The notes under the pieces were generated by a model that did no database searches, had not been told where the DNA came from, and saw only the letters and a list, made by a program, of their open reading frames with translations. This document shows, piece after piece, positions 40,098-49,114 of a DNA stretch of 64,000 nt (positions are counted from its first letter, which is position 1; the number at the start of each line of letters is the position of its first letter). The stretch comes from Chloracidobacterium validum (GTDB lineage: Bacteria; Acidobacteriota; Blastocatellia; Chloracidobacteriales; Chloracidobacteriaceae). The stretch lies in contig NZ_CP072649.1 of assembly GCF_018304825.1 (NCBI RefSeq), forward strand, positions 124,001-188,000, written 5' to 3'. A program made the translations under genes and the position numbers.

Positions 40098-40280
40098 CGA
40101 TTTCAGTTTCCTGACACATGGCCGTCACATAACTCCCCTATACGAAAGCCCCGACATAAGGAATCACGCCTTACGTCCTGAATCGTCAAGGTTTACTCGC
40201 GCGGTTCAGCTTCTCGGCCGTGGTGTAGCCACCGCCACGCCGGATGTGTTGCCAGCCGATTCCGTATGGAAGGGGACTCA

Positions 40281-41435
40281 ATGTCAAACGCAACCACGCT
40301 TAGTATCGTCAAGCCGGGAGAGGCTTTCAATCACGGATTGCGCACCGGCATTTCACTCCACTGCCACACCAAATTCTCGCGCGAAGTCCTCGACTTCATT
40401 CCCCACTACGCCGCGAACATTCCACTCATCGCCCAGCTTTTCGCCCGCCTGTGCCGGCGCTACGAGGCCGAGCATGGCCGTCCGCTGGACTTCACGAAAG
40501 CCTGGTGGACGCCCCCGGTGACGCCGCGCGTGCTGCACGATGCCGAAGTGCAGCACCTGGAAGCTACCTTGGGCGTGCGCGGGATCGTCTCCATCACCGA
40601 CCACGACGAAATCGAAGCCTGCTGCGGGCTGCGCGCCACCGGCGAAGAGGTGCCCATTTCAACCGAATGGACTGTGCCGTTTGGCGTGGCCTACTTTCAC
40701 ATTGGCGTCCACAATCTCCCACCCGACCATGCGCGCGCCATTGCCAATGAGTTGTTTGCGTTCACCGAAGACCCGGCCGCACGCGACAAACCGGAGGTTC
40801 TTGAAGAGTTGTTTTCGATGCTCAATGCGCTTCCAGGCGTGTTGGTCGTTTTGAACCACCCCATCTGGGACATTGAAAACATCGGGCAGTCGAAGCACAT
40901 GGCGGCGCTCGCGGCCTTTCTCGACCGCTACAAGCGGTGGCTGCACGCCCTGGAAATCAACGGCTTTCGGTCGTGGCGCGAAAACCTCGACGTGGCCCGC
41001 CTGGCCCGCGACCTCGACCTGCCCCTGGTGTCGGGCGGCGACCGCCACGGCTTGTCTCCAAATACCGTTGTGAACCTGACGGACGCCACGACGTTTGAGG
41101 AGATGGTCGAGGAAGTGCGCGTGGCCCGTCGGAGTCACGTCGTGGTGCTGCCGGAATACCAGGAGAACATGATGTTGCGTATCTTTGAAGCGGCGGCGCA
41201 AATCCTCGACCATTACCCGGATCATCCGGCCGGCCAGCGCCACTGGACGGAACGACTGTTCTTTTTGGATGAACGAGGCTGTCCCCGCTCGCTCCACGAA
41301 GGCTGGGCCAATCACAGTCCGGTATGGGCGCGCGTGGCGACTTGGGTGTTCCGGCAACTCGGACGCCGTCACTGGCGTCCAGCTTTGGAGAAGGTGCTCC
41401 CCAAACCCCAGCTTGAGTTGTTGAGTGAACAATGA
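40281..41435 (+). CDS. PHP-domain metal-dependent hydrolase-like protein
   Basis: The 384-residue protein starts at ATG 40281 with AAGGGGA 5 bases upstream. PHP-type metal motifs are visible in order: SLHCHTKFSRE, SITDHDEIEACC, VVLNHPIWDIENI, and SGGDRHGLSPNT. PHP proteins are phosphoesterases acting on nucleotides, phosphohistidine or sugar phosphates; the substrate here is unknown. Its stop overlaps the start of the GT4 gene (ATGA at 41432), so the two are likely partners in making a surface or lipid-linked sugar. Confidence 0.82.
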   Translation: MSNATTLSIVKPGEAFNHGLRTGISLHCHTKFSREVLDFIPHYAANIPLIAQLFARLCRRYEAEHGRPLDFTKAWWTPPVTPRVLHDAEVQHLEATLGVRGIVSITDHDEIEACCGLRATGEEVPISTEWTVPFGVAYFHIGVHNLPPDHARAIANELFAFTEDPAARDKPEVLEELFSMLNALPGVLVVLNHPIWDIENIGQSKHMAALAAFLDRYKRWLHALEINGFRSWRENLDVARLARDLDLPLVSGGDRHGLSPNTVVNLTDATTFEEMVEEVRVARRSHVVVLPEYQENMMLRIFEAAAQILDHYPDHPAGQRHWTERLFFLDERGCPRSLHEGWANHSPVWARVATWVFRQLGRRHWRPALEKVLPKPQLELLSEQ

Positions 41436-42745
41436 CGATTTGGTCAGCCTCCGCAGTACAAGCAGCGAACTGTGCCGGGGTGGCGCTGGCGCGCCAAGCC
41501 GTGCCGCCCTCACCGGCCGACACGGTGCGCGTGGCGCTTTTCCCCGACTCCTACCATGAAGCCAATGGCGTTGCGCGCACGTTCCGAACCCTGACGGATG
41601 TGGCGCGGCGGCGGCAGCTTCCACTGCTGATCGTCCGGTGCGGTAGCGCCGGCGCTGGACAACCGCCGGTTGCCGGCCCGCAATGTGACGGCTCCATCAC
41701 GGCCGTTGAACTCCAGCGTGGCGGCTGGTCGTTCCCGCTGGATGCGGATTTGAACTTCGACCTGTGGCTCTGGCGCTATGCCCGCGAAGTCCGCGAGCAG
41801 GTCCGAGCGTTTCGTCCGCAGGTCATCCATGTGACCGGACCGAGTGACATTGGCCAACTGGGCGTTTATGTGGCGAAGTCGCTCCATCTCCCACTGGTGA
41901 TGTCGTGGCACACGAACCTGCACGAATACGCCGGGCAGCGTTGGTCACGGTTGCTTGATTACGCTTTTGTTTCACCCTTGGTGCGGGAGCGAACCAGCCT
42001 CTGGGCTGAAACCCAATCGCTCTGGGCCACAATGAAGTTTTATGAATACGCCGATGTTTGTCTGGCGCCAAACCCCGAACTGGTCAAACTCGTGGCGCGG
42101 ATGACCGGCAAGCCGACGTACCTGATGCAGCGCGGCATTGACCCCGAAGCGTTTCATCCGGCTTACCGGACTCGTCCCCTGGACGCGCCGGTTGTCCGCA
42201 TCGGTTTTGTCGGCCGCCTCAGCACGGAAAAGAATGTCCGCTTCCTAGCCGAACTAGAACGGCGGCTGCTTTCCCAGGGCTTAACCCACATCGAGTTTCG
42301 CATCGTCGGCGCTGGAAGCGAGCGCGACTGGCTGGCGGCCAACCTCCAGACCGCGACTTTCGCGGGCGTCCAGCGTGGTGTGGCATTGGCCTGTGAGTAT
42401 GCCGATTTTGATATTTTCGTTTTTCCCTCCCGGACGGATACGTACGGCAACGTCGTGCTCGAAGCCGCCGCGTCGGGCGTTCCCTGTGTCGTGACGGGGG
42501 ATGGCGGGCCGAAGTTTCTGGTCGATCATGGGCAATCTGGATGGGTGGCCTCGGATGACGATGCGTTCGTGGCCGCCGTGGCCGACCTAGTGCGTTGGCC
42601 GGAGCATCGCCACCGGATGCGTGCGGCTGCACGGGCACAGGCTTCACGCGCCTCCTGGGAGGCGGTCTTGGATGAAGTCTGTCTCGCCTATGGGGTCGCT
42701 TGTGGAATGACATCGGCCGTGGTGGCAAAAAGTCAGCTCATTTGA
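41432..42745 (+). CDS. GT4-family glycosyltransferase
   Basis: The 437-residue GT-B enzyme resembles GDP-mannose/UDP-sugar transferases such as MgtA and SqdX. The N-terminal acceptor domain has VALFPDSYHEANGVARTF, VIHVTGPSDIGQLGVYVAK and MSWHTNLHEYAGQRW. The donor domain has IGFVGRLSTEKNVRFLAELE and FVFPSRTDTYGNVVLEAAAS, the E-x7-E region that holds the nucleotide. An extra ~25-residue N-terminus precedes the fold. The likely acceptor is a lipid, but this is inference. A strong terminator follows. Confidence 0.87.
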   Translation: MTIWSASAVQAANCAGVALARQAVPPSPADTVRVALFPDSYHEANGVARTFRTLTDVARRRQLPLLIVRCGSAGAGQPPVAGPQCDGSITAVELQRGGWSFPLDADLNFDLWLWRYAREVREQVRAFRPQVIHVTGPSDIGQLGVYVAKSLHLPLVMSWHTNLHEYAGQRWSRLLDYAFVSPLVRERTSLWAETQSLWATMKFYEYADVCLAPNPELVKLVARMTGKPTYLMQRGIDPEAFHPAYRTRPLDAPVVRIGFVGRLSTEKNVRFLAELERRLLSQGLTHIEFRIVGAGSERDWLAANLQTATFAGVQRGVALACEYADFDIFVFPSRTDTYGNVVLEAAASGVPCVVTGDGGPKFLVDHGQSGWVASDDDAFVAAVADLVRWPEHRHRMRAAARAQASRASWEAVLDEVCLAYGVACGMTSAVVAKSQLI

Positions 42746-42760
42746 TTAAAAGTCCAATCC

Positions 42761-42797
42761 AAGGCCGGAAAAATTCTGGCTTTCTTTCGCCTTTTTT
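42761..42797 (+). terminator. Rho-independent terminator after the PHP-GT4 operon
   Basis: AAGGCCGGAA-AAA-TTCTGGCTTT forms a ~10-bp stem (two G-U pairs) with a 3-base loop, followed by the T-rich CTTTCGCCTTTTTT. It starts 15 bases after the GT4 stop. Confidence 0.8.
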
Positions 42798-42905
42798 ACG
42801 GCAACGTAACACCGGCATGGCATCTCTTGCGAAAGACCAAATGGCCGGCTGATTTACCCGCGGCTGCGTCCCGGCCAAAACTGCCTGATTGATACGGTGG
42901 TTGCT

Positions 42906-43802
42906 ATGGTTGCTGTGAAGTGTGGAAACAATCTGATTTGGCGCGGCTGGCTGTGGCTGCCGGCACTCCTGAGTCTGGCGGCCGTGTCCCTGTCGGCGCC
43001 TGCCATGTCCCCGATGGCGCAGGATCGGGTGCTGTCAGATAGCGAAATCGTCTCGACCTTACGGGCGCTCCGTAGCGAGATGCTGGACCTGTTGGCGCAG
43101 GTCGCCGGCAAGGGGGCAACGATGACCCGTCCGAGTCGGCGGACGATGGACTTTGAGTCGTACCGTCGAACCTTCGAATCCTACAGCACCAAGATAGACG
43201 ACAGCTATCGTCGCCTGGCAGCTTGTTATGCCCAGATTGACCGGATTTATCGAACCAACCCCAACTCGCCGCTCTACAAACAAATGGTGCAGACCTACCT
43301 GGATGCCAAGGGGGTTTTCGACAACCTCAAATCCACATTCGGCGCGCTCGAACCCCCAGAGCAAACCGTCACCGAAGCGGTGATTTCAAACGACCGCCGC
43401 CTCAATGAGCGCGTTTCCACATCGGTTCGCACCGCCGCTGCCCCGCCCGCGCCAGCCCAGGCCGCCAAAGAGATCATCGAAGCCGATGATTCACGCTTCA
43501 TCGGGACGTTCGACGCAGTCGAAATGTTTTTGCTCGTGCGCGGCGACAGCGCCTGCTATGTGCTGTTTGGCTGGAAGGATGTGGTGGATGATGAAAATGG
43601 CCGGTCAACCGAAGAGTACCACTTATCCGTCGTCCGGTCTGAGACGTTTCCATTGACGCCAGTGATTCGGACGATGACCCCAGACCAGCACCTGGAGAAT
43701 GCGCTGAAACTCAAGATAGCCGTGGTCGAGGCGCAAGGCGAAGTCCTGACCGACCTCAAGCAGTTTTTCGTGCGTACCAAATCGTACACTCGCGCCAACT
43801 AA
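42906..43802 (+). CDS. Secreted helical protein, paralog 1 of 3, unknown function
   Basis: The 298-residue protein starts at ATG 42906 with GGTGG 5 bases upstream. It has a signal peptide (LWLPALLSLAAVSLSAPAMS) and a helical N-terminal half ending in the shared core DRIYRTNPNSPLYKQMVQTY, LDAKGVFDNLKSTF. An Ala/Pro-rich linker leads to a C-terminal domain with DDSRFIGTFDAVEMFLLVRG. It is close to paralog 2 over its whole length. I recognise no family. The locus is followed by a sensor kinase. Confidence 0.8.
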   Translation: MVAVKCGNNLIWRGWLWLPALLSLAAVSLSAPAMSPMAQDRVLSDSEIVSTLRALRSEMLDLLAQVAGKGATMTRPSRRTMDFESYRRTFESYSTKIDDSYRRLAACYAQIDRIYRTNPNSPLYKQMVQTYLDAKGVFDNLKSTFGALEPPEQTVTEAVISNDRRLNERVSTSVRTAAAPPAPAQAAKEIIEADDSRFIGTFDAVEMFLLVRGDSACYVLFGWKDVVDDENGRSTEEYHLSVVRSETFPLTPVIRTMTPDQHLENALKLKIAVVEAQGEVLTDLKQFFVRTKSYTRAN

Positions 43803-43873
43803 CCCAGCTTGATTTCGCGCCTGCCCTTCCACGCTGTTTTTTTCAACCTGTGTGTTCCAGGCACCTCGCTTCT

Positions 43874-43898
43874 CGCCCCAGACCTATCTGTTGGGGCG
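43874..43898 (+). other. Stem-loop between paralogs 1 and 2
   Basis: CGCCCCAG and TTGGGGCG pair around a 9-base loop, 70 bases after paralog 1. No T-tract follows, so it may be a Rho-dependent or processing signal rather than a classic terminator. The rest of the 299-base gap is AT-rich, with a lone -10-like TATACT at 43935. Confidence 0.4.
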
Positions 43899-44101
43899 TC
43901 CCACAGGGCTATGTACGTGATAAAACAGGCAGGCTATACTTAGTCTTGCTTGATTAGGGAAAATTAATGTAGAGCCTGAAGATAAATTCAGCGATTTCTA
44001 ATCTTTTTAGGGCCGGCGCGCACGTAGCGACATTGTGCTGGCTTGGCTGACCTTCAGGTTGTGAAGCTGGGGAAACCCTAGAGCGTCGAAAGGAGTACAG
44101 G

Positions 44102-45007
44102 ATGCATCATCTGCTTTCTTTATTCAGGCATCGGCTGGCAGTGCAGGTGTGGGCGTTGTGGGTCGCGGTCGTGTCCACCTGGGTCGGGTTCGGGGCGGAC
44201 AGGGCCTGGAGCCGCCCAGCTCCCCAGGGACAAATCATGGCGGACAGCGAAATTGTTTCGACCTTACGGGGGTTGCGCAGCGAGATGCTAGACCTGCTCG
44301 CCCAGGTGGCCGGCAAGGGGGCAACGGCGGGACGCTTGAGCCGCCGAACGATGGACTATGAAAACTATCGTCGGACATTCGAGGCCTACAATGGCAAGAT
44401 CGAGGACTGTTATCGGCGCTTGGCGAGCTGCTACGCCCAGATTGATCGGGTGTATCGCACCAACCCCAACTCACCACTGTACAAATCTATGGTTCAGGCC
44501 TACCTCGATGCCAAAGGCGTGTTTGACAACCTCAAGTCAACCTTTAGCGCGGTGGAGCAGCCAGACGCCTTGCGCACCGAAGCGGTGGCTTCGACCGACC
44601 GGCGCCTGAACGAGCGGATTGCAACTTCGGCGCGGTCAGCCGCGCTCCCGCCGGCCCCGGCCGAAGCGGCAAAGGACATCATCGAGTCAGATGACTCCCG
44701 GTTCATCGGAACGTTTGATTCCGTTGAGATGTTCCTGCTCGTCAAAGGGGAGATGGCTTGCTACGTCATGTTTGGCTGGAAGGAAGTCGTGACCGATGAT
44801 GAAGGCAAACCCAGTGAGCAGTTTCACCTTTCCGTTGTGCGTTCTGAAATGTTTCCCTTCACGTCGGCTGTTCGCTCCCTGACTCCGCCACAACATCTGG
44901 AAAATGCGCTGAAGCTCAAGATTGCAGCCGTTGATGCGCAGGGCGAGGTGTTGAGTGATCTGAATGAGTTCTTCGCGCGGACGAAGTCATACACCAAAAT
45001 AAACTGA
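44102..45007 (+). CDS. Secreted helical protein, paralog 2 of 3, unknown function
   Basis: The 301-residue protein starts at ATG 44102 with AAAGGAG upstream. It has a signal peptide and is near-identical in layout to paralog 1: SEIVSTLRGLRSEMLDLLAQ, DRVYRTNPNSPLYKSMVQAY and DDSRFIGTFDSVEMFLLVKG. Both contain a cysteine in SCYAQID and one in ACYVMFGW, which could pair after export. Most differences are in the linker. A strong terminator follows, so paralog 3 is a separate unit. Confidence 0.8.
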   Translation: MHHLLSLFRHRLAVQVWALWVAVVSTWVGFGADRAWSRPAPQGQIMADSEIVSTLRGLRSEMLDLLAQVAGKGATAGRLSRRTMDYENYRRTFEAYNGKIEDCYRRLASCYAQIDRVYRTNPNSPLYKSMVQAYLDAKGVFDNLKSTFSAVEQPDALRTEAVASTDRRLNERIATSARSAALPPAPAEAAKDIIESDDSRFIGTFDSVEMFLLVKGEMACYVMFGWKEVVTDDEGKPSEQFHLSVVRSEMFPFTSAVRSLTPPQHLENALKLKIAAVDAQGEVLSDLNEFFARTKSYTKIN

Positions 45008-45048
45008 GTTACTGTGGCCGCGGGCGGCGACTGCGGCCGGTGAAGAAT

Positions 45049-45088
45049 GGTAAGGCTCTCTGCACAGAGCCTTACCGTTTTCTATTTT
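45049..45088 (+). terminator. Rho-independent terminator after paralog 2
   Basis: GGTAAGGCTCT and AGAGCCTTACC form a perfect 11-bp stem with a 6-base loop (CTGCAC), followed by GTTTTCTATTTT. Confidence 0.93.
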
Positions 45089-45277
45089 GACTCCTATTTT
45101 GACGCGCCGGTGCGGTGCGTCAGAAGCAGGCAGAAACCAGTTTACAAGGTTGTCAATTTCGTGTTTCACTATGTGGCCGCCGATGATTACAGCCCAACTT
45201 ACTGTTTTTTCATAGTAAGTCGCTTGATTTTCAGGTGAGATTGTGGGTTTGACTCCAAATCTTTCGAGGCTGCCTCC

Positions 45278-46183
45278 ATGACGCACACTGTAAAGCCCTG
45301 CGCCGTCTGGCTGCGGATTCGCTTGCTCCGGTCTGTTATAGGAATATACGCTCTGGCCTGCTTACTGGCTACGTTGCCCTGCTTAGGCCTGTGGAGCGCA
45401 CCAGTTCATGCCCAGTCTGGGGCTGTGCTTTCTGAGGCTGATCTGCTGGCTGTGCTGCAAAAATTCAAAGCAGAGATTGAAGAGATGCAAAAGCAGCTTG
45501 CGGCCTCGCCGCTCAACCAGTCGGTCAACCGTCGTGCGCTGCGTTATGACGAATACAGCACGTTACACGCAAGTTGGAGCGCGCGCCTTCAGGAGCGTTA
45601 CGCCGTGCTGAATGGCTACTATGAGCAGGTCAACCGCATCTACCGAGCCAACCCCAATTCACGGCTTTACCTCGATGTGCGCAAAGCGTATGTGGATGCC
45701 AAAGCGTCCTTTGACGCACTGAACAGCGCCTTTGCGCAATGCGCCAAGCCCGAAGATACTCGCACCCCAACCATTGTTGTTACCGATGGCCGCCTCAATA
45801 CCCACTTGACCAAGACGGTATCCACCGTCAAAACCGAAACCAACCCGGCGGTGGACATCAGTCGGGCGGATGAGCTGCGTTATATCGGGAAGTTCGACGC
45901 CGTTGAGCTCTACCTGCTGACACTCAATGGCATGGCGTGTTACGTCATGTACGGACTCCATGAACGCAAGGTGGATGACACTGGTCAAGTCATTGATGAG
46001 GTTGATTCACGGGTTGTTTTCTCGCAATCCTTCAAGGCTGAAACCGTTCAAAGTTTTACACCACAGGATCACCTTGATTATGTCCTCAAGCTTGATCTGA
46101 CACCTGTCCAGGCTCAGATTGAAACCTGGCGCTTCATTACCGAGTCGCTGGCGCGCGCGAAAAGCTACGCCCGGGGAGACTGA
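45278..46183 (+). CDS. Secreted helical protein, paralog 3 of 3 (diverged)
   Basis: The 301-residue protein (ATG 45278) has a signal peptide (LLATLPCLGLWSAPVHAQ) and the same order as paralogs 1 and 2, but lower identity. Conserved are NRIYRANPNSRLYLDVRKAY, VDAKASFDALNSAF, ELRYIGKFDAVELYLLTLNG and ACYVMYGL. The SCYAQ cysteine of paralogs 1 and 2 is replaced (NGYYEQV), while the ACY cysteine is kept. An older duplicate is the simplest explanation. Confidence 0.78.
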   Translation: MTHTVKPCAVWLRIRLLRSVIGIYALACLLATLPCLGLWSAPVHAQSGAVLSEADLLAVLQKFKAEIEEMQKQLAASPLNQSVNRRALRYDEYSTLHASWSARLQERYAVLNGYYEQVNRIYRANPNSRLYLDVRKAYVDAKASFDALNSAFAQCAKPEDTRTPTIVVTDGRLNTHLTKTVSTVKTETNPAVDISRADELRYIGKFDAVELYLLTLNGMACYVMYGLHERKVDDTGQVIDEVDSRVVFSQSFKAETVQSFTPQDHLDYVLKLDLTPVQAQIETWRFITESLARAKSYARGD

Positions 46184-46411: not shown

Positions 46412-49114
46412 TTGTCACATCCTCGCCCAAGTTCTATCGCCACGATTGGTTCGGCGCCAGTCCTGGAGCGTCTCACCAAGGTTTTACGCGGCGCCGGCTT
46501 TCTGGTCGGCCCACTTCCAGCCCAGTCGCCAACTTGGTGGGCGACCACAGACGCCGTTCTTCTGGATGCTCAATCCCCGTCCTGCAATCCTACGCTGGAT
46601 TGGTGGAAGGTGGCCCGCGAACGTCACATCCCCGTCCTCGTGTATGCTGAAAGTCTCGTGGATCGCCGTCTGGCAGGTTGGCTCGAGGCTGGTGTCTGGG
46701 ATTGCTTCGATGAGCAGACACCTGTGGCGCTCGTCGTCCATCGTGTCCAGCAGGCCATCCAATCCAGCAAACGGTCATCTGCTGTTGGCTTGCGGTTAGC
46801 CTTTGTCGCCGGGCTTGCGGCGTCCTCGCCAGCGCGCCTGGCCGTGATGGAACGTTTGGAAGGACGGTTCGTCTTCCGAGTCATCAACCGTACCTTTGCG
46901 GCCGATTTTGGTCGGCTGCCGGAGCAGTTGACGGACATTCCACTTGACGAGCTTGGATTGTCCGAAGGGCAGATGGCTGACCTCTCGGTTTGGCAGCGGT
47001 GGTGCAGCGAGGCGCTCCGGCTGGGGCGCGGCGTATCCTTTGTTCATCAGTCGCTACGTTCCGCGCGGTGGTTCTCAGCGACGTTTGAGCCACTGCGGCA
47101 GTACGGGGTCGCGGCAGACGCGGTGTCTATCTACGTCGAAGACATCAGTGACCAGCAAGCGGCCAAGCTCCGCTCGGTCGAGAGCGAAGAGCGGTTCTAT
47201 CGGGTTTTTCAAGTCATTCCGGTTGCCACTTCGATTCAGACGATACCCGATGGTCGTTACCTGGATGTCAATGCCGCCTTTACCAAGTTATTCGGATACA
47301 CCCGCACGGAATGCATCGGTCGCACGGCGCTCGAGTTAGGACTATGGGCAAAGACAGAGCAGCGCGAGCAGTATTACCAACAACTCGACGCGCAAGGGCA
47401 GGTCATTGACTTTGAAGGCAGCTATCGAGCACGCGACGGCCGGGTCGGGCAGGCTGTCCTGTCAGCCGTGACGCTGGTGATTGGCGATGTGCCGTGCCAA
47501 TTGGCACTCATTCAGGATGTGACTGAGGCAAAGCAACTTACTGAGCGCCTACGCCAGCGTGAGGAATGGTTCTATGCCATCCTCAATGCGGCTCTGGACG
47601 GTATTGTGGTTGAAGATGATCAACGGATTGTCTATGCCAACCAGGCGGTTGCGCGGCTGTATGGCGTCGAGAGCCCCGAGCTACTGGTCGGGCAGGATTT
47701 TTCGGTCATGTGCGCGCCTCATGAAGAAGGCCGGTTGCGCAGCTATACCCAGCGTCGGATGCGTGGCGAGCCAGCGCCGCCAACCTATGAGTTTACGGCC
47801 CAGCGCGTGGATGGAACGACATTTGAACTGGAAAATTCCGTCTCTGAGTTTTTTTCAGGCGGCAAAAAATATCTGATCGCCGTCATGCGCGATGTGGAAG
47901 AACGCAAGCGCCTCCAGGCGACGCTCCAGCAGGCGCAAAAAATGGAAGCGGTGGGACGCCTGGCAGGTGGGGTCGCCCATGACTTCAACAACTTGCTCAA
48001 CAGCATTCTCGGTTTCTCAAAGCTGGCCAAGCGCAAGCTGGAGTCAGTCCCCGACCCGACGCTGGATGAATACTTCGATGCCATCGAAACAGCCGCCGAA
48101 CGTGCTGCCCACCTCGTATCCAAACTGTTGGCGTTTGGCCGGCAGAAAGAAGCCTCGCGCCAACCCATTGATCTAACCACCGTGGTACAGGACAGCTTGT
48201 ACCTCGTGCAGGGACTGCTCCCACCAAACATCAAAGTCAAAACCACTTTGGCAACCGACCTCCCAGCTTTCGAGGGCGATCCCGATCAGGTTCAGCAAAT
48301 CATCATCAACCTGTGCCTCAATGCGCGGGATGCAATGCCGGACGGCGGCACGATCACGCTCGGCACGCGGTCTGAGACCTTCCCAATCAAACAAGGGGGA
48401 CGAACTCTGAGCGGACAGCTCGGCGGACGCTGTGTCTGCCTCACCGTGGACGACACTGGCGTTGGCATGGATGATCTGACGCGCCAGCACATTTTTGATC
48501 CATTCTTCACAACCAAAGATTTGGGTGATGGTGCGGGACTTGGCTTATCGGTCGTGCACGGCATTGTCACGGCCCACGGCGGAACGATTGTGGCTGAGAG
48601 CGCGCCTGGGCAGGGAACGCGCTTCGAGGTTCGCTTCCCGGCGCTGCGGGTGAACGCGACCGGTGAGTATCCCTCGTTTGAAAGCCCCTACCCCACGCCA
48701 GGCAACGGTTTGAGCGTGCTCAAGCGTTCACCGTCGGCTTCCGACCTCATTCTGGTAGTTGAAGATGACACGATGATCGCCCAACTGTTTACCGAAATCC
48801 TGCATGAGTCCGGCCACGATGTCGTCGTGGCGACGGATGGACAGCAGGGCGTCAAGCTGTTTGCCGAGAAACCAGATGCCTTCAAACTGGTCATTCTGGA
48901 TGCCATGCTGCCTCAGCTCGATGGCCTTGGATGTTTGCAAGCCATCCGTCAATACAAACCAGATATGCCGGTGCTTGTGGCCAGTGGTTACGGTGAAGAA
49001 GCCGCCGCCGGAGAGCTATCCGCGCAGGCGACCGTGTTTCTCCAAAAGCCCTTCACGCCGGAAGTCCTGGTGGCGGCGGTCGGTCGGGCGCTGGGTCGGT
49101 CGGCAATGTCCTGA
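46412..49114 (+). CDS. Hybrid sensor histidine kinase (pseudo-receiver, PAS, PAS, HisKA, HATPase, REC)
   Basis: The 900-residue protein has an N-terminal receiver-like region (about 1-115: IPVLVYAESLVD, AGVWDCFDEQTPV), two PAS domains (about 255-375 and 385-505), HisKA with GGVAHDFNNLLNS (H523), ATPase boxes INLCLNARDAM, VDDTGVGMDD and GLGLSVVHG, and a C-terminal receiver with D830 in VILDAMLPQLDGLG and K in FLQKPF. No membrane helix is seen, so it senses an internal signal. The only start in reach is TTG 46412 with a poor ribosome-binding site, so the N-terminus is uncertain. Confidence 0.9.
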   Translation: MSHPRPSSIATIGSAPVLERLTKVLRGAGFLVGPLPAQSPTWWATTDAVLLDAQSPSCNPTLDWWKVARERHIPVLVYAESLVDRRLAGWLEAGVWDCFDEQTPVALVVHRVQQAIQSSKRSSAVGLRLAFVAGLAASSPARLAVMERLEGRFVFRVINRTFAADFGRLPEQLTDIPLDELGLSEGQMADLSVWQRWCSEALRLGRGVSFVHQSLRSARWFSATFEPLRQYGVAADAVSIYVEDISDQQAAKLRSVESEERFYRVFQVIPVATSIQTIPDGRYLDVNAAFTKLFGYTRTECIGRTALELGLWAKTEQREQYYQQLDAQGQVIDFEGSYRARDGRVGQAVLSAVTLVIGDVPCQLALIQDVTEAKQLTERLRQREEWFYAILNAALDGIVVEDDQRIVYANQAVARLYGVESPELLVGQDFSVMCAPHEEGRLRSYTQRRMRGEPAPPTYEFTAQRVDGTTFELENSVSEFFSGGKKYLIAVMRDVEERKRLQATLQQAQKMEAVGRLAGGVAHDFNNLLNSILGFSKLAKRKLESVPDPTLDEYFDAIETAAERAAHLVSKLLAFGRQKEASRQPIDLTTVVQDSLYLVQGLLPPNIKVKTTLATDLPAFEGDPDQVQQIIINLCLNARDAMPDGGTITLGTRSETFPIKQGGRTLSGQLGGRCVCLTVDDTGVGMDDLTRQHIFDPFFTTKDLGDGAGLGLSVVHGIVTAHGGTIVAESAPGQGTRFEVRFPALRVNATGEYPSFESPYPTPGNGLSVLKRSPSASDLILVVEDDTMIAQLFTEILHESGHDVVVATDGQQGVKLFAEKPDAFKLVILDAMLPQLDGLGCLQAIRQYKPDMPVLVASGYGEEAAAGELSAQATVFLQKPFTPEVLVAAVGRALGRSAMS

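Follow-up and report, generated by a model that had tools for sequence, protein, structure and literature searches.

A tandem gene array of Chloracidobacterium validum encodes an undescribed, lineage-restricted family of probably exported proteins

A 64,000-nucleotide stretch of the Chloracidobacterium validum genome (contig NZ_CP072649.1, positions 124,001 to 188,000 of the forward strand; referred to below as the window) carries three tandemly arranged paralogous genes, designated copies 1 to 3. Their products belong to an undescribed, lineage-restricted protein family, whose mature part is under strong purifying selection in all four paralogs present in this genome. Judging from their N-terminal sequences, these proteins are probably exported. 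The host is a light-using acidobacterium of hot springs with a genome of 3,659,143 bases (contig C2, 1,000,103 bases), and the window is part of its chromosome 2. The array consists of the following open reading frames (ORFs):

42906..43802, plus strand: copy 1, ORF of 298 amino acids (aa); an alternative in-frame GTG start 9 nt upstream is possible
44102..45007, plus strand: copy 2, ORF of 301 aa
45278..46183, plus strand: copy 3, ORF of 301 aa; divergent

The three ORFs lie on the same strand, as expected from the original prediction of three tandem paralogs. Its further statement that copies 1 and 2 are very similar, and copy 3 older, is also supported: the former share 66-69% identity (69% in a three-sequence alignment), and copy 3 shares 32-35% with them (34% with copy 1 in the same alignment). 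Chance likeness of copy 3 to the other two can be ruled out, because copy 3 used as a query retrieves copies 1 and 2 from the genome with E values of 5e-45 and 8e-47. All three proteins contain the motifs YRxNPNSxLY, DAKxxFDxL and R(F/Y)IGxFDxVE; the last had been described as ending in FDAVE, which reads FDSVE in copy 2. The Ala/Pro linker ascribed to all three proteins occurs only in copies 1 and 2, the linker of copy 3 being shorter and rich in Thr and Lys. A whole-genome search detected copy 4 (C2:874511-875347; E 8e-41), located on the same replicon away from the tandem array.

The distribution of the family was analysed using sequence profiles. When 58 relatives were searched with a profile of the three copies, 10 gave matches, all of them belonging to the same bacterial family as Chloracidobacterium. 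A second profile was based on an alignment of 33 members, from which (and from all counts made on that alignment) a broken copy 4 of genome G005 was excluded. The proteins it describes are present in each of the ten examined genomes of this bacterial family and in none of four genomes of the sister family within the order. A search of 396 genomes sampled from the phylum, in which few first-look candidates were scored per genome, revealed matches in five, all of the same bacterial family. The copy-number survey of Acidobacteriota suggested with the original prediction thus yielded matches confined to this bacterial family, with four copies per genome within the genus (7 genomes) and two in each of three other genera (represented by G007, G008 and G009). 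A scan of contigs with peptide patterns, whose reach is limited to pattern matches, identified 4 loci; the bins that contain them all bear the title Chloracidobacterium or Blastocatellia. A profile of the C-terminal domain only, applied to 195 genomes, retrieved family members and a single outside row (E 0.0475, with an internal stop), which was taken as chance; hence, no other architecture was seen. No link to mobile elements or phages was detected, copy 2 having no match in a plasmid collection and the three window proteins none in PHROGs. Within the genomes searched, the protein family is therefore restricted to one bacterial family. In G005, copy 4 (L043:9797-10634) is broken into pieces and its two nearest upstream neighbours are likewise split between several frames, which may be due either to decay or to sequencing error.

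Separate orthologs of copies 1, 2 and 3 are present in all seven genomes of the genus. In each of these, copy 1 is closer to the nearest copy 1 of another species (80-94% identity) than to copy 2 of its own genome (62-66%), which indicates that the tandem set is old and has not been homogenised. In a phylogenetic tree, the proteins form clades of (i) copy 3, (ii) copy 4 together with one G008 protein and (iii) copies 1 and 2 together with the other G008 protein; support for the separate copy 2 and copy 1 groups is weak (61/75 and 71/85, respectively). The tree program warns of meeting long branches in two places, one involving the clades of copy 3 and copy 4 and the other a G009 pair and the clade of copies 1 and 2. 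The two G009 genes are themselves arranged in tandem (L048:8439-10369) and, since this pair from another genus clusters with itself, there seems to have been more than one tandem duplication event.

The ratio of nonsynonymous to synonymous substitution rates (dN/dS) was calculated for 21, 21, 21 and 15 species pairs of copies 1 to 4, respectively, and was finite in 18-21 pairs (11-13 for copy 4). The medians for the mature part of copies 1 to 4 are 0.064, 0.056, 0.078 and 0.071, and those for the N-terminal region 0.557, 0.709, 0.566 and 0.662; dS is near saturation (mean proportion of synonymous differences 0.59-0.72), and all of these values are therefore approximate. A fast-evolving N-terminal region followed by a slowly evolving remainder is expected of a cleaved signal joined to a functional mature protein. 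Given this difference, it is very likely that the intact copies encode functional proteins whose signal-like N-terminus is under loose constraint.

The signal peptide postulated in the original prediction is consistent with simple hydropathy analysis, in which each of the 33 members displays a signal-type N-terminus, i.e. a positive n-region and a hydrophobic core (12-residue mean of at least 1.95) with no later membrane helix. Beyond residue 60, hydropathy reaches at most 1.59 over 19 residues, so that no strong later membrane stretch is apparent in any member. The remainder of the protein was modelled for copy 2:

Copy 2, whole protein: AlphaFold2 model with helices at residues 48-70, 86-120 and 127-149, and an alpha/beta domain at about 160-300; predicted local distance difference test (pLDDT) 82.3, predicted template modelling score (pTM) 0.67
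44564..45004, plus strand: copy 2 C-terminal domain modelled alone (residues 155-301); AlphaFold2 pLDDT 82.9, pTM 0.80, best of five

The predicted fold is an antiparallel three-helix coiled-coil bundle followed by an alpha/beta domain, in keeping with the helical half and second domain recognised previously. When aligned to this model, copy 1 displays a signal-type N-terminus, the three-helix bundle, the Ala/Pro linker and the C-terminal alpha/beta domain. Eleven columns are invariant in the 33 members (Y118, Y127, Y134, P154, G203, L212, Y221, F251, H265, L270 and Y297). This set is mostly structural or aromatic and includes one histidine, with no invariant acid, Ser, Cys, Lys or Arg.

No named family had been claimed for these proteins, and neither profile searches (Pfam, NCBIfam, PDB sequences) nor fold comparison placed them in one. 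Scans of all 33 members gave scattered weak rows (best E 0.0081 in Pfam and 0.026 in NCBIfam); any listed family was reached by at most 3 of the 33, and the bit scores of the window proteins were far under the curated cut-offs. Among PDB sequences, the matches to the family profile were weak and for the most part coiled coils (E values of 0.0057 or above), and the C-terminal domain profile gave E values of 0.51 or worse. No literature on this protein family was recognised in searches of open-licence PMC papers. As far as these searches of families, structures and literature reach, the family is undescribed.

The modelled N-terminal domain resembles the antiparallel three-helix bundles of spectrin type (plectin, spectrin and designed proteins), with a VIA Z of up to 12.6 over 108 residues and a root-mean-square deviation (rmsd) of 3.4, although a helical-bundle Z under about 13 may reflect a common arrangement only. 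Identity to these bundles is 4-16% among the matches listed and, in contrast to them, the family is bacterial, of exported type and built of a single bundle. Sequence homology to spectrin was not found: the spectrin family was absent from the Pfam scan of the 33 members and the PDB rows were weak. DH/PH fragments of Rho exchange factors, which gave the top Foldseek row (E 0.025), also combine a helical part with a subsequent beta-rich domain, but the template modelling score (TM-score) is 0.17 and the rmsd 19. The C-terminal domain alone matches solved structures weakly (best Foldseek E 0.20, best VIA Z 3.1), with no clear match. A faint likeness of this domain to the VirB8-like OrfG domain and to human p32 (VIA Z 3.1 each; 83 and 80 residues, rmsd 4.4 and 5.2, respectively) scores under the tool's meaningful level and is without sequence support; neither PH, VirB8 nor any other family stands out among the matches listed. 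A search of a viral fold library gave one row below 0.001, whose TM-score of 0.21 led us to regard it as meaningless.

From these computed properties (sequence, distribution, selection and signal-like N-termini) and the predicted folds we infer a location and a role. The reading that we favour, with a rough probability of 0.4, is that these are exported, soluble, non-enzymatic two-domain proteins, which act as lineage-restricted scaffold or binding proteins of the cell envelope. After crossing the inner membrane via the general secretory route, they would function non-catalytically within the periplasm or on the cell surface, either dissolved or loosely bound. In this scheme, the helical bundle may provide a stalk or an interaction scaffold, and the C-terminal domain may recognise a partner or ligand, each paralog its own. 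Binding or scaffolding is preferred to enzymatic activity because the invariant residues are mostly aromatic or structural and include no acid, Ser, Cys, Lys or Arg. An envelope role, as suggested originally, thus remains the most likely reading, although it is export by itself that points to it.

Several observations weigh against this proposal. The AlphaFold2 input for copy 2 comprised 12 sequences that are fairly similar to one another, and the mean pLDDT of the five models ranged from 82.3 down to 65.0 for the whole protein and from 82.9 down to 53.7 for the C-terminal domain. Moreover, no operon partner recurred from one genus to the next. Finally, seven charged or Ser residues (E61, R119, D166, R168, D206, E209 and S248) are kept in at least 90% of the 33 members and would be compatible with a catalytic or metal-binding role.

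This last point leads to the first of the alternatives, namely that the family comprises exported enzymes of an unrecognised fold, with an active site formed by the invariant His and the near-invariant Asp/Glu of the C-terminal domain. The conservation of H265 in 33 of 33 members, that of D206, E209 and S248 mentioned above, and the strong constraint on the C-terminal domain are compatible with such a function. However, the constraint extends over both domains, there is no invariant acid or nucleophile, and no enzyme family scored above the cut-off in the Pfam and NCBIfam scans. We consider an enzymatic function unlikely.

A second, similarly improbable alternative assigns the proteins to signal transduction, as extracytoplasmic sensor or accessory proteins that signal to the adjacent histidine kinase or to the products of other nearby signalling genes. 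The genes flanking the array (context genes, assigned by Pfam) are:

41432..42745, plus strand: family 4 / group 1 glycosyltransferase, upstream of copy 1
46412..49114, plus strand: hybrid PAS histidine kinase (PAS-PAS-HisKA-HATPase-receiver), downstream of copy 3

The kinase cluster lies directly downstream of copy 3 in all seven genomes of the genus (domains checked in four, including the window), and the glycosyltransferase cluster is found upstream of copy 1 in six, the exception being G006; the array of G004 is split by a contig break, and copy 1 of G001 is masked by an overlapping antisense frame. The glycosyltransferase gene is adjoined by a gene (40266-41435) whose 389-aa product matched nothing in Pfam at E 0.001 and whose gene cluster lies alongside in most genomes of the genus.

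Signalling genes are also found near copy 4, which in this genome is flanked by a SpoIIE-type phosphatase gene and by DUF4388 and receiver genes, and near members in the three other genera. In G008, genes for a protein kinase and an HD-domain protein lie beside or near members (one of its contigs, of only 3.4 kb, says little). In G009, a receiver-GGDEF gene lies beside or near a member, and the distance between the tandem pair and a glycosyltransferase gene is about 7.5 kb. In G007, an outer-membrane receptor-type gene lies beside or near a member, and two histidine kinase genes are situated about 6-10 kb from one member. The neighbours thus vary from copy to copy, and none of the family genes in these genera has this kinase or glycosyltransferase directly beside it. 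In addition, the kinase is composed of PAS, HisKA, HATPase and receiver domains, and its hydropathy peak (mean 1.93 over 19 residues from position 349), which passes a crude membrane cut-off, falls inside a PAS match. With these domains and the hydrophobic stretch within PAS, it is not evident how the kinase could reach a partner in the periplasm. The neighbouring sensor kinase noted in the original prediction does adjoin the array throughout the genus; nevertheless, owing to its cytoplasmic-type domains and the differing neighbours in other genera, this adjacency reflects mainly genus-level synteny and is weak evidence for function.

A photosynthetic role, i.e. a chlorosome protein, a reaction-centre accessory or the reported carotenoid-binding protein, is far less probable. 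Such a role would suit a genus which PMC12816986 presents as phototrophic, and PMC9751088 and PMC10968294 report a carotenoid-binding protein missing from the reaction-centre structure. Among 12 genomes searched, FMO (PF02327) and Bac_chlorC (PF02043, CsmA-type) matches were both found in the same eight. G007 and G009 (99% complete each) have the family without an FMO or CsmA-type match, whereas G008 has the family and both matches, and the family is therefore not tied to the antenna system. Moreover, no convincing chain of a solved structure was retrieved by sequence, even though a reaction-centre structure is published, and the published size of the carotenoid-binding protein is 22 kDa, compared with about 300 residues here. 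On the basis of distribution (G007, G009) and size, the reaction-centre, chlorosome and carotenoid-protein candidates were set aside, and a photosystem role for the family is unlikely.

As a separate observation, the FMO and CsmA-type matches of G008 (C758:4686-5735 and C590:4039-4218) occur in a genome placed in another genus, despite the description of Chloracidobacterium, in PMC8245765 (2021), as the sole chlorophototrophic genus of Acidobacteriota.

Recent local amplification under changing selection, for which the three tandem copies and the separate pair in G009 might speak, is hardly credible in view of the greater similarity of copy 1 to its counterparts in other species than to its own copy 2, and of the low dN/dS of every copy. 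The "local amplification" of the original prediction, understood as a recent adaptation, accordingly gives way to separate orthologous lineages of copies 1-3 in 7/7 genomes with no sign of homogenisation, and its interpretation in terms of amplification plus a sensor kinase is only partly supported.

Inspection of the intergenic sequences revealed several elements that may control expression of the array:

42795..42824, plus strand: promoter-like element before copy 1, TTTAC-N6-GTAAC followed by TGGCATC (TGTCA in relatives); aligned in 7 species
45044..45081, plus strand: hairpin of an intrinsic terminator separating copies 2 and 3, with a stem of 16 pairs and a T tract
45100..45122, no strand assigned: inverted repeat TGACGC-N11-GCGTCA, situated after the terminator and ahead of copy 3; candidate second hairpin or operator
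45141..45169, plus strand: promoter-like element before copy 3, TTTACA...TTTCAC; TTTACA kept in 7/7 species

The hairpin agrees with the terminator originally placed between copies 2 and 3. It is kept in all seven genomes of the genus, with 14 pairs in the compared arms of each species, and the arms show 2-7 two-sided compensatory changes per species pair (six species; G004, which has longer arms, was left out). The assignment relies on this conservation, since the number of terminator-like sites in the region (3) does not exceed that of shuffled sequences (mean 3.6).

The TTTAC-N6-GTAAC core is exact before copy 1 in 5 of 7 species and before copy 4 in 4 of 6 (by eye from alignments). In this genome there are three exact sites (8 for the reversed control), two of which precede copies 1 and 4 by 95-109 bp, the third lying within an ORF; with one mismatch allowed, there are 75 sites (207 for the control). 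As the pattern was derived from the same alignments, this test is partly circular. The copy 4 core sits within a plausible ordinary promoter (TTTACA-N18-TAACAT or TAATAT). The upstream alignment of copy 2 contains a short TGCTT kept in 6 of 7 species and no TTTAC element. A plain promoter scan of the region missed these elements, giving one hit on the opposite strand (shuffle mean 1.3). We consider it probable from these alignments that copies 1, 3 and 4 have their own promoters. Common control through a TTTAC-type element is merely suggested, because of the shared origin of pattern and test and the overlap with an ordinary promoter at copy 4.

Cores with one change precede copies 1 and 4 in G001 and copy 1 in G005. 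In both genomes, the sole exact core site lies upstream of an outer-membrane receptor-type gene on chromosome 1 (L075:2-1372 in G001, L074:2-1372 in G005), where it is followed by another GTAAC; the L074 gene encodes CarboxypepD_reg, Plug and OMP beta-barrel domains.

The arms of the inverted repeat are exact in 5 of 7 genomes of the genus, with one mismatch in G006 and the repeat absent from G002 (by eye). This repeat is not specific to the array, since it has 9 other sites in this genome; TGACGC-N10..13-GCGTCA occurs at 10, 11 and 14 sites in three genomes. A repeat of a different kind, a tandem array of six copies of one 16-mer spaced at exactly 75 bp, is located elsewhere on the contig (C2:767668-768058).

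The four conserved lineages, the TTTAC(A) sequences before copies 1, 3 and 4, and the occurrence of the family in relatives with and without chlorosome/FMO proteins prompt a more speculative idea. The C-terminal domain might represent a new fold, and the four paralogs might be jointly regulated parts of one envelope assembly that is peculiar to the bacterial family of Chloracidobacterium, which we regard as doubtful.

Whichever role applies, the array clearly exemplifies a probably exported protein that is restricted to one bacterial family, is kept by strong selection and is found in all ten examined genomes of that family. If the C-terminal domain does not have a new fold, this would be an ordinary orphan family deserving a name and a profile. 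If the fold is new, the proteins would add a fold and point to an undescribed envelope function in the lineage that includes Chloracidobacterium.

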